A DNA stretch of 33,983 nucleotides from a bacterium (GTDB taxonomy: Bacteria; Patescibacteriota; Doudnabacteria; UBA920), in contig JAJYWK010000066.1 in the NCBI GenBank assembly GCA_021791515.1, positions 1 through 33,983 on the forward strand, written 5' to 3'. The notes under the pieces are model-generated. The model saw only the letters and a list, made by a program, of their open reading frames with translations. It did not search any database and was not told where the DNA came from. Each line of letters begins with the position of its first letter. Position 1 is the first letter of the stretch. A program made the translations under genes and the position numbers. Shown in pieces: positions 14,896-29,970 of this stretch.

Positions 14896-14950
14896 TGCGG
14901 GATAGAGCAATTGGCATCCGCCTTAGGCGGATCATAACCCTCTAAGTAGT
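14896..14950 (+). pseudogene. Disrupted 5' copy of initiator tRNA-Met
   Basis: TGCGGGATAGAGCAATTGGCA[TCCGCCTTAGGCGGA]TCATAACC; the first 21 nt match the intact tRNA at 15192 except position 1. Confidence 0.8.
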
Positions 14951-15229
14951 ATGTTTGAGGTTTACGTAATCCAAAATCCTAAAGGCACTTTATACACCGG
15001 TTTTACCTCAAATCTGGCTGCCAGATTAGCTGAACACAATACTGGAAAACCTGGAAACTATACTTATAAGCGTGGTCCTTGGAAACTTATACATAAAGAA
15101 ATTTATGAGTTCAAAGACGAAGCTTCTAAAAGAGAAAAGTTCCTCAAATCAGGAAAGGGGAGAGAATTTATTAAAAGCTTCGTGATAATATCGCGGGATA
15201 GAGCAATTGGCAGCTCGCAAGGCTCATAA
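14951..15229 (+). CDS. Small GIY-YIG family nuclease; C-terminus runs into the tRNA
   Basis: 'VYVIQNPKGTLYTGFTSNLAARLAEHN', 'EASKREKFLKSGKGREFIKS'; stop TAA lies in the anticodon loop of the downstream initiator tRNA. Confidence 0.88.
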   Translation: MFEVYVIQNPKGTLYTGFTSNLAARLAEHNTGKPGNYTYKRGPWKLIHKEIYEFKDEASKREKFLKSGKGREFIKSFVIISRDRAIGSSQGS

Positions 15230-15267
15230 CCTTGAGGTTCCCGGTTCGAGTCCGGGTCCCGCAACCA
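15192..15267 (+). tRNA. Initiator tRNA-fMet (CAT)
   Basis: C1xA72 mismatch (CGCGGGA/TCCCGCA), anticodon loop CTCATAA, encoded ACCA; close to the E. coli tRNA-fMet layout. Confidence 0.93.
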
Positions 15268-15395: not shown

Positions 15396-15451
15396 GACGG
15401 GATAGCTCAGTTAGTTACCTGCCTGCCGGCAGGCAGGGATCGTGGGATTCA
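15396..15451 (+). pseudogene. tRNA-like 5' half with a palindrome in the D-loop
   Basis: GACGGGATAGCTCAGTTAGTTA[CCTGCCTGCCGGCAGGCAGG]GATCGTGGGATTCA, then GCCCGCACTAAATTT. Confidence 0.6.
15418..15437. repeat. Dispersed palindrome CCTGCCTGCCGGCAGGCAGG
   Basis: Third identical copy in the window, inside a tRNA D-loop. Confidence 0.95.
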
Positions 15452-15498
15452 GCCCGCACTAAATTTTTACAATCAATTTTCTACCGTGGTCTTTTGGG

Positions 15499-15575
15499 GC
15501 CGGAGTAGCTCAGTTAGTTAGAGCGTGGGACTCATAAGCCCAAGGTCAGAGGTGCAATTCCTCTCTCCGGCACCA
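15499..15575 (+). tRNA. tRNA-Met (CAT), elongator (tRNA-Ile2 not excluded)
   Basis: GCCGGAG/CTCCGGC acceptor, TGGGA-CTCATAA-GCCCA, AGAGG-TGCAATT-CCTCT, encoded CCA. Confidence 0.9.
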
Positions 15576-15614
15576 TGAGCCCGCGGTATGGATAGAAATT
15601 TAGTGCGGGCCGAG

Positions 15615-15655
15615 TAAGCCCAAGGTCAGAGGTGCAATTCCTCTCTCCGGCACCA
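15615..15655 (+). pseudogene. Exact 41-nt duplicate of the tRNA-Met(CAT) 3' half
   Basis: TAAGCCCAAGGTCAGAGGTGCAATTCCTCTCTCCGGCACCA, identical to 15535-15575. Confidence 0.9.
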
Positions 15656-15809: not shown

Positions 15810-15898
15810 GGGACCGTAGCTCAATTGGTTACCCGCCCGAACGTACCGCTCGGTACGGGCGGGGAGCACCCGCCTGTCACCAAAGAGGTTAAAAGCAA
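15810..15898 (+). pseudogene. Disrupted 5' copy of tRNA-Asp
   Basis: GGGACCGTAGCTCAATTGGTTA[15832-15863 palindrome]GAGCACCCGCCTGTCAC then CAAAGAGGTTAAAAGCAA; matches intact tRNA-Asp at 16134 outside the insert through the anticodon loop. Confidence 0.85.
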
Positions 15899-16156
15899 AT
15901 GTATACCGTATACGTATTAAAAGATAAGCTGGGAAACCTATATAAAGGCTTTACTAGCGATACCGAAAGGAGAATTAAAGAGCATAAATATGGCAAGACC
16001 AAAACGACCAGAAAAATGGAAAATCTTCAAATTATTTACACCGAAAACTTAAATTCCAGACTTGAGGCCAGAAAAAGAGAAAAATATTTAAAGTCAGCCG
16101 CAGGAAGAAGATTCCTAAAATCAATAGGTATATGGGACCGTAGCTCAATTGGTTAG
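15899..16156 (+). CDS. Small GIY-YIG family nuclease; C-terminus runs into tRNA-Asp
   Basis: 'VYVLKDKLGNLYKGFTSDTERRIKEHK', 'EARKREKYLKSAAGRRFLKS'; stop TAG lies in the tRNA-Asp D-loop. Confidence 0.88.
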   Translation: MYTVYVLKDKLGNLYKGFTSDTERRIKEHKYGKTKTTRKMENLQIIYTENLNSRLEARKREKYLKSAAGRRFLKSIGIWDRSSIG

Positions 16157-16210
16157 AGCACCCGCCTGTCACGCGGGAGGTTACGGGTTCGAGCCCCGCC
16201 GGTCCCGCCA
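16134..16210 (+). tRNA. tRNA-Asp (GTC)
   Basis: GGGACCG/CGGTCCC acceptor, CCCGC-CTGTCAC-GCGGG, encoded GCCA. Confidence 0.93.
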
Positions 16211-17724
16211 GATTTCCGCGCTGGAACTTGCATAGTTGCGAGAGAATTTGGAGCTTCAGCGCGAGAATCTTCCGAAACTTTTGAGGTTTGCAAATCTACA
16301 ATACAGTCAAACACTGGCGTCCATTTGGGCACCAGTTTTTGGTTTGTGTGGACGAAACCTTCAAAGCAGAGCTTAATGATGGTGCGTTTTTGCATGACGC
16401 CGGATTTTTCGTAAAGAAGGTCAGCGTGGTCGTTAAAATTCAGCAGGTCGTTGAATGCTTGCACAAACTTGTCGGACTGGCTTTCCAGGTCGGCCAGCCG
16501 CTCCTGGTAGACCTGCTTTTCCCGCAGCAGCTCGTCCTGTGCCTTCAGAAAAATCTCGGCATCGATTAACCTTTTGGATCGATCCATAACCAGATTGCGG
16601 ATCTGCTGCTGGATTTTGACCAGTTCCTGCTTAATGCTTTTACGCTCCAGTTCTTCGTTGGTCAGCCTCGTCTTGGCAAAGTGCTGAAAGTAGGCATCCA
16701 TAGTCTTCTTCATTTTGCCCGGCAGCTGCACCCGGGACAGGAAAGCCAAAACTTGCGGTTCGATTTCTGTATCTTTAGAGTACCGCTTTTCCGGACAATA
16801 AATGTCGCGCCTCTTGGTGCAGCTGTAATACAGGTGACCTTTTTTAAGTTGTCCCACCATAGCCGAGCCGCAGTGGCCGCAGCGGATGTAACCAGACAAG
16901 GGGTAAATGTGCTTGCGGGTGCGGTCTGCATAATGGTTTCTCTCCTGGATTTTTTCCTGCACGTCGTCAAACAACTTTTTGGAAATAAGTGTCGGAAAGC
17001 TGGCCTGGGCAGTGCCGTACGCTGTCTTTATAAGGCCGTAGTAGATGGGATTGCCCAAAATGTGCTCTATTGTCCTCCGGCCGACTGGTGTGCCGCCCCT
17101 TGCCCGAAAGCCCCGCTCGTTAAGCAGCACGGCCAATGCCTCATAGCCGTACTTGCCGGTGGCGTAAAGATCAAAGGCTTGTTTGACGAACTTTGCCCGG
17201 GTATGGTCTATGGTTAAAAGCTTGGTCTTTTTATCGTTAAGATAGCCAAGCGGCGCCACTCCCGGAAAGCGGCCGCGCTCTACCGCTTCTTTCAATCCCT
17301 TTTTAACCTCCCAACTGATGTTCTGGCTCGTCCACTGGGCAATCGATGCCATAATATTCTCCACCAACTCTCCGGAAAAGGATTCGTCAAACTGCTCAAC
17401 CACCGAAATGACCCTGACATCGTGCTTTTTAAGCATCATTTTAATGGCGGCGTAGTCAGCGACATTGCGGCAGAGCCTGTCCAGCTTATGGACTAAGATG
17501 ACATCGACCTTGTCGTCAATTTTTGCCCTGTGCAGCATTTTTTGCAGCTGCGGACGTTCGGCCGTCCTGGCCGATTCGCCGCGCTCCTCAAAAACATTCT
17601 CCGGCAAGGAATGCCAGGCATGCTCAGTGGCATACTTTTGGCAGGCTTTTATTTGCGCCGGAATGGATAATTCACGTTCTGCCTGCCGGGTCGTGGACAC
17701 CCGGCCGTAAATAAGGTAGTTCAT
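16153..17724 (-). CDS. Large serine recombinase/integrase
   Basis: 'YGRVSTTRQAERELSIPAQ', 'VHKLDRLCRN', recombinase domain, zinc ribbon 'CGHCGSAMVG...YYSCTKR...C'; C-terminal 'GGARTRNLPRDRRVL' is antisense tRNA-Asp. Confidence 0.93.
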   Translation of the reverse strand: MNYLIYGRVSTTRQAERELSIPAQIKACQKYATEHAWHSLPENVFEERGESARTAERPQLQKMLHRAKIDDKVDVILVHKLDRLCRNVADYAAIKMMLKKHDVRVISVVEQFDESFSGELVENIMASIAQWTSQNISWEVKKGLKEAVERGRFPGVAPLGYLNDKKTKLLTIDHTRAKFVKQAFDLYATGKYGYEALAVLLNERGFRARGGTPVGRRTIEHILGNPIYYGLIKTAYGTAQASFPTLISKKLFDDVQEKIQERNHYADRTRKHIYPLSGYIRCGHCGSAMVGQLKKGHLYYSCTKRRDIYCPEKRYSKDTEIEPQVLAFLSRVQLPGKMKKTMDAYFQHFAKTRLTNEELERKSIKQELVKIQQQIRNLVMDRSKRLIDAEIFLKAQDELLREKQVYQERLADLESQSDKFVQAFNDLLNFNDHADLLYEKSGVMQKRTIIKLCFEGFVHTNQKLVPKWTPVFDCIVDLQTSKVSEDSRAEAPNSLATMQVPARKSGGTGGARTRNLPRDRRVL

Positions 17725-29722: not shown

Positions 29723-29890
29723 AAACAAAAAGGCCCCCACCAGGAGCTCGACCCTTTCGGGCCGAACGCACGGGTTTCCCCATGCGACCAGCAAAGGAAC
29801 CCTGGCGAGGGTTTCTCTATCCTTTGCTGGTTTGGCTACCGGAGCAGCCAGTTGCCATGCCCGAAGCCTGTAAGGCCTGCGGGTTTAGGC
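29723..29890 (-). ncRNA. Candidate structured RNA/leader upstream of the 55-aa ORF
   Basis: Hairpins ACCAGCAAAGGA...TCCTTTGCTGGT, GGCTGC-TCCG-GTAGCC, CCCG...CGGG; ends GGGGGCCTTTTTG on the minus strand. Confidence 0.45.
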
Positions 29891-29970
29891 GAATTTAGTT
29901 GTTAACTTAATTTTAACACAAATCAGGTAAAATAAAAACGAATTTTTGGTAAAATTTTTTCAAAGTTATT

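Follow-up and report, generated by a model that had tools for sequence, protein, structure and literature searches.

A putative minimal mobile element of a GIY-YIG nuclease gene and a palindrome at tRNA genes of a Doudnabacteria genome

How did a small nuclease gene come to lie between a broken and an intact copy of the same initiator tRNA gene? The question is raised by contig JAJYWK010000066.1 of a Doudnabacteria genome (assembly GCA_021791515.1), whose whole stretch of 33,983 nucleotides is called the window here. An earlier note, made from the letters alone, had described a GIY-YIG open reading frame (ORF) between a disrupted 5' copy and an intact copy of the initiator tRNA gene, and had proposed a tRNA-targeted, homing-like element. 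The features of this locus (14896-15267) are as follows.

14896-14916, + strand: 5' fragment (positions 1-21) of a broken initiator tRNA-Met copy, TGCGGGATAGAGCAATTGGCA, in native upstream context
14917-14931, no strand: 15-bp palindrome TCCGCCTTAGGCGGA, taking the place of 11 nt of the tRNA copy
14932-14939, + strand: TCATAACC, anticodon-loop part of the broken initiator tRNA copy
14951-15229, + strand: small GIY-YIG nuclease ORF, 92 aa (PF01541, E 1.6e-14)
15192-15267, + strand: intact initiator-type tRNA-Met(CAT) (Rfam RF00005, 62 bits), in native downstream context

Nuclease genes and broken tRNA copies in the window

Every part of the described arrangement is present, base by base. The broken copy and the intact tRNA share an exact 20-nt match, and the 11 nt replaced by the palindrome are GCTCGCAAGGC. 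The statements that the last codons of the ORF (SRDRAIGSSQGS) translate the 5' part of the intact tRNA-fMet, and that the anticodon-loop TAA serves as its stop codon, were both verified in the sequence. No special meaning attaches to this stop, because 23 of 58 comparable loci have the ORF stop inside the tRNA, at several places, most commonly at the conserved TAG of tRNA positions 8-10; its position in the anticodon loop is incidental. The intact tRNA-fMet is uninterrupted, unrecoded and identical to the native tRNA of relatives.

Empty sites were found in three relatives (G012, G015 and G016), in which the conserved upstream region runs into an uninterrupted tRNA-fMet without the insert; in G012 the conserved downstream flank also follows the tRNA. 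Compared with these sites, the window has a net insertion of 296 bp that starts with the 21-nt tRNA copy. The insert thus shares with homing genes a target-specific location and empty alleles in relatives. A search of the insert for an integrase gene found none, and an integrase-type att site (prophage/ICE) was rejected because the repeat is the 5' end of the tRNA, not its 3' end, and the insert has no integrase. Group I introns (RF00028) lie in or by the tRNA-fMet locus of six relatives (L074-L079, in G003, G024, G008, G036, G013 and G001), and they are a separate, known phenomenon. They sit at the anticodon (loop) wherever both halves could be read, whereas the insert in the window is in the D arm; a search of the window for the Rfam RF00028 core gave no match. 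The group I intron of G003 carries an ORF.

The earlier note had overlooked a second element at tRNA-Asp (15810-16210), 0.6 kb from the initiator tRNA element, and the broken copies around elongator tRNA-Met (15396-15655). The latter lie between the two elements and form a version of the arrangement without an ORF, in which a palindrome-bearing 5' copy precedes the intact tRNA and a 3' copy follows it.

15396-15417, + strand: 5' fragment of a broken elongator tRNA-Met copy
15418-15437, no strand: palindrome CCTGCCTGCCGGCAGGCAGG within the broken elongator tRNA-Met copy
15499-15575, + strand: intact elongator tRNA-Met(CAT), with inverted repeats on either side (about 15453-15466 and 15597-15610)
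15615-15655, + strand: 3' remnant (positions 37-77) of a broken elongator tRNA-Met
15810-15831, + strand: 5' fragment (1-22) of a broken tRNA-Asp copy
15832-15863, no strand: 32-nt palindrome, exactly between tRNA-Asp positions 22 and 23, without loss
15864-15880, + strand: positions 23-39 of the broken tRNA-Asp copy
15899-16156, + strand: second GIY-YIG nuclease ORF, 85 aa (PF01541, E 2.8e-11), with its stop inside tRNA-Asp
16134-16210, + strand: intact tRNA-Asp(GTC)

The genome contains 14 GIY-YIG matches, one in a UvrC-size frame (L011) and 13 in small genes. Six of the 13 are at tRNAs (fMet, Asp, Gln twice, Asn and Thr), one is inside a 16S rRNA gene, and one (C48) is at a start codon between inverted repeats. 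The neighborhood of tRNA-Asp also holds a serine recombinase gene (16153-17724, - strand), the last codons of which overlap tRNA-Asp, coming from the 3' side of the tRNA; beyond it, a repressor-like gene and then phage-like genes continue to the contig end. This region is probably an integrated element that uses tRNA-Asp as its attachment site and adjoins the GIY-YIG element. A LOOT RNA (RF03000, 50.7 bits), which belongs to a small RNA family of unknown role, is located at 29749-29891 (- strand).

The protein has the Pfam GIY-YIG domain with the conserved Tyr, Tyr, Arg, His and Glu positions, whose roles we take to be those of I-TevI. The residues invariant in the family are retained in the ORFs. 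As judged from codon positions, at which differences are distributed 190:96:536 and fall mostly in third positions, the nuclease is shown to be under purifying selection. GIY-YIG is its only Pfam match, so that it is not a Y1 HUH transposase. Its nearest relatives in the PDB are UPF0213 proteins, SLX1 and I-TevI. UPF0213 / YhbQ and SLX1 are the closest in sequence among those with solved structures, and SLX1 is structure-specific; we know of no link of either to tRNA duplications. Palindromes, or the cruciforms that they could form, are plausible candidate substrates of the nuclease.

Recurrence of the arrangement at tRNA genes

As the proposal of tRNA targeting implied, homologues are strongly enriched beside tRNA genes. 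In the genome itself and 60 relatives, a search with the Pfam profile placed 34 of 97 GIY-YIG genes within 300 bp of a tRNA (30 on the same strand and 4 on the opposite strand), compared with 1 of 30 NUDIX control genes in the same genomes (Fisher p = 3e-4). A set sampled from 380 genomes of the phylum, which is biased by its query because the profile was made from tRNA-adjacent members, had 53 of 78 genes near a tRNA, all on the same strand; in this query-biased set, 37 of the 78 have a same-strand tRNA immediately downstream, and an opposite-strand tRNA is nearest in 0. With the window protein alone as query, 79 loci were obtained in named genomes, and 58 of them adjoin a tRNA, again always on the same strand. 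These tRNA-adjacent loci include Bacteroidota, Omnitrophota, Planctomycetota, Ignavibacteriota and others. An assembly artefact is unlikely because many independent assemblies show the arrangement, among them those of named strains such as Winogradskyella immobilis, Aquimarina litoralis and Roseivirga pacifica. A phage origin was rejected; 22 phage records gave only weak matches, and IMG/VR gave none.

The broken tRNA copy recurs with the gene. At 35 of 58 loci with the tRNA downstream, a 5' copy of that tRNA precedes the ORF (scores of at least 9) and mostly ends in the D arm; the same 58 loci gave 0 such scores with reversed tRNAs and 1 with reverse-complement tRNAs. The search found no recognizable 5' copy at the other 23. 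A mirror image, in which the intact tRNA is followed by the ORF, a palindrome and then the 3' half of the same tRNA, was found at 23 of 28 named loci, with no control score above 7. It is rarer in the Patescibacteria set, where 5 of 36 loci with the tRNA upstream have the 3' copy. The broken copy therefore lies across the ORF from the intact tRNA in both orientations. Among the 58 loci whose tRNA is downstream, ten have in addition a 3' remnant after the intact tRNA (control 0).

We collected 87 loci with a partial copy of the same tRNA across the ORF from the intact one, from Patescibacteria, Bacteroidota, Omnitrophota, Planctomycetota and others. A perfect hairpin lies at the break in 73 of them, compared with 7.6% in shuffled sequence. 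The nuclease gene, the tRNA copy broken by a palindrome and the intact copy of the same tRNA are one recurrent unit in several phyla. Dozens of unrelated bacteria carry it, which indicates a widespread type of mobile element, apparently not described before, that enters genes of essential RNAs and that the host survives.

The origin of the tRNA copies was examined by comparing them with the tRNAs of their hosts. In the clade at tRNA-Asn, the copies match the acceptor stem of each host and not one another, which suggests that the palindrome and the ORF travel while the tRNA copy arises locally. The idea that the copy is brought from a previous host was rejected on this ground, with the exception of the tRNA-Gln locus of G001 (L257/L122). 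There, the outer broken copy matches the native tRNA-Gln of G006, a sister genome, exactly, and 3 sites, including a compensated acceptor pair, distinguish the inner intact copy from the outer one. Therefore, the origin of the copy may differ between loci.

Palindromes and units outside tRNA genes

The palindrome at 14917-14931 belongs to a dispersed repeat, TCCGCCnnnGGCGGA, which is the commonest palindrome type and occurs in several phyla. This genome contains 44 copies, several of them in the loop of another hairpin, and 0 copies of the same pattern read backwards. Across 343 genomes outside the order of the window, genomes with more GIY-YIG genes tend to have more TCCGCCnnnGGCGGA copies (rho 0.48). 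Palindromes also lie far from GIY-YIG genes, and some genomes have many GIY-YIG genes yet no TCCGCCnnnGGCGGA. The palindrome is a dispersed repeat linked to the nuclease, not a local accident.

Palindrome type and tRNA type go with nuclease type between families. In comparisons between families, protein identity correlates with palindrome similarity (r=0.31; r=0.26 when the two loci are at different tRNAs) and with the identity of the tRNA (r=0.29). All three values were reached in 0/2000 permutations, which leave some effects of host relatedness in. The nearest neighbor from another family has its tRNA in common in 20 of 55 cases, compared with 5 expected. The tRNA-Asn clade covers five families, and elements of two families at a Pro-tRNA and a Gln-tRNA (L089 and L210) carry the same double palindrome. 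One nuclease clade is found at Lys, His, Pro, Asn, Val and Thr tRNAs, with a long palindrome type in common where the broken copies are readable; a specificity for the tRNA alone was rejected on account of these six tRNA types and their common palindrome. If the palindrome and the ORF simply travel together, the co-variation would follow from linkage alone. At four further loci (L014:1450-1670, L041, L112 and L121), GIY-YIG genes are framed by REP-like repeats, GTCATTCCCGC..GCGGGAATGAC or GTCATCCCGG, that belong to other palindrome families.

Related units occur outside tRNA genes. Inverted repeats flank the ORF in 36 of 90 GIY-YIG genes that are not near a tRNA, compared with 2 of 170 controls, and most of these units are 276-315 bp long. 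Terminal inverted repeats were also sought in the tRNA-class loci and were found in 4/53 and 0/28. Two units with inverted-repeat ends lie inside 16S rRNA genes (L001:1468-1779, which is C32 of this genome, and L027), and two lie directly beside RNase P RNA genes (L092 and L096). Eleven units are located at start codons of unrelated host genes and have ATG (or ATGA, TATG) at both junctions; one of these start codons is uninterrupted in a relative. All eleven have terminal inverted repeats and are listed here.

L006:1780-2100, L025, L038, L043, L158, L171: start-codon units, ~280-310 bp
L182, L224, L225, L229, L233: start-codon units, ~280-310 bp

The inverted-repeat unit L176 has the ends ACCCGCC / GGCGGGT. 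Its sister (support 84) is the tRNA-Cys element L163, the palindrome of which is CCCGCCTCAGGCGGG. This pair suggests that the palindromes could be the two element ends joined without the ORF.

Origin of the arrangement and its relation to known systems

We consider it rather probable that a minimal mobile element is present at tRNA genes of the window in three copies, two of them complete and one without an ORF; the working parts of this element would be a GIY-YIG nuclease domain of ~75 residues and its cognate palindrome. The mobility of such elements is inferred from their distribution. In the proposed mechanism, the nuclease would cut at the palindrome (or its cruciform) and at the tRNA gene, and repair of the break would yield a tandem tRNA-ORF-tRNA. 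A palindrome would then spoil one tRNA copy, while the other copy would keep the host alive; this order of events is our reconstruction from the arrangements seen at present-day loci. The ORF may be read from the tRNA promoter and would stop in or just before the intact tRNA. ORF-less palindromes may be non-autonomous offspring of the element. A wider proposal is somewhat doubtful: a new class of autonomous ~300-bp elements, in which a single GIY-YIG domain would serve as the transposition enzyme acting on its own palindromic ends. Such elements would enter the most conserved sites (tRNA, rRNA and RNase P RNA genes and start codons) and regenerate the target, and the dispersed palindromes of Patescibacteria and other phyla would be their non-autonomous offspring.

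In classical homing, the insert interrupts the recognition site and so makes its carrier immune. A free-standing homing endonuclease gene of this kind would cut the tRNA gene that lacks the insert and be copied in by recombination. Membership in the GIY-YIG family, target-specific clades, the empty alleles of relatives and the precedent of SegB in the T4 tRNA region all agree with it, and we nevertheless judge it unlikely. Since the intact tRNA is uninterrupted and identical to the native one, the insertion destroyed no recognition site inside the tRNA, and a nuclease cutting there would cut its own carrier; known homing also involves neither palindromes nor duplicated tRNA halves. A homing-type cut might lie across the junction of leader and tRNA, or in the palindrome. 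The proposal of a tRNA-targeted, homing-like element thus holds as a description, given the tRNA enrichment, the nearly constant strand and the one intact copy left, and it fails as simple homing. Another unlikely explanation is that the palindromes are independent repeats, like the Rickettsia palindromic elements, and that the GIY-YIG gene is a separate tRNA-homing element with which they have only their targets in common. Such independence would suit a genome with 44 palindromes and 13 small GIY-YIG genes, and also the palindromes in loops of other hairpins. It agrees poorly with the hairpin at 73 of 87 breaks, with palindrome numbers that track GIY-YIG numbers genome-wide, and with palindrome types that co-vary with the nuclease even at different tRNAs.

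Passive decay, in which a tRNA was duplicated by chance and palindromes and small nuclease genes landed harmlessly in the redundant copy, has a low probability. It would account for palindromes that are dispersed repeats and for broken tRNA copies that are non-functional, but it leaves unexplained the same-strand order with the ORF between the broken and intact copies, the tRNA-specific nuclease clades, the co-variation of palindrome and nuclease between families and the recurrence across several phyla. It is scarcely credible that the arrangement is what is left of a group I intron or of the neighboring integrative element. Several relatives have group I introns in tRNA-fMet, and the serine recombinase gene runs into tRNA-Asp from the opposite side; however, the intron signal is absent from the window, the introns are in the anticodon loop and not in the D arm, and the arrangement recurs without a recombinase.

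The mobile element that we propose resembles several known systems in part. SegB of T-even phages is a free-standing GIY-YIG homing endonuclease in a tRNA region (PMC2988022, PMC13096335). In phage T6 it causes tRNA-segB segments to be amplified in tandem, and the repeats show microhomology between the 3' end of segB and the 5' end of the tRNA (PMC13096335). The elements described here likewise combine a GIY-YIG nuclease adjoining tRNA genes with tRNA duplication. Unlike the phage protein SegB, they are found in bacterial chromosomes of several phyla and encode a domain of ~75 residues, and they have palindromes and broken tRNA copies, neither of which has been reported for SegB. GIY-YIG-encoding insertions that are not group I/II introns have been described in CPR rRNA genes; that study treats rRNA only, its text mentions neither tRNA nor palindromes, and it places the GIY-YIG insertions outside homing (PMC11270868). 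These insertions share with ours the hosts and the location of GIY-YIG ORFs in structural RNA genes, and they are probably of the same kind. The present elements extend to tRNA genes, RNase P RNA genes and start codons and have inverted-repeat ends in part.

In REP/RAYT systems, dispersed palindromes are tied to an adjacent single-domain enzyme gene and co-vary with it. Dispersed palindromes that co-vary with an enzyme were found here as well, but the enzyme is a GIY-YIG protein instead of a Y1 HUH transposase, and the targets are tRNA genes. Rickettsia palindromic elements are short palindromes scattered in genes, for which we know of no enzyme, whereas a nuclease gene is linked to the palindromes here. 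No description of the tRNA-GIY-YIG-palindrome arrangement was found in the literature searched, which covered few subscription papers and no preprints.

If the proposed reading is correct, short palindromic repeats without an enzyme would gain one, and the unexplained GIY-YIG insertions in CPR rRNA genes would be accounted for. Even single-copy genes for essential RNAs would then be open to a selfish element, because it leaves a functional copy next to the broken one, and at ~300 bp this element would be among the smallest self-encoding mobile elements. The element loci form a ready set of natural experiments. For genome annotation, tRNA copies broken by palindromes and ORFs running into tRNAs should be read as signatures of such elements and not as sequencing errors.
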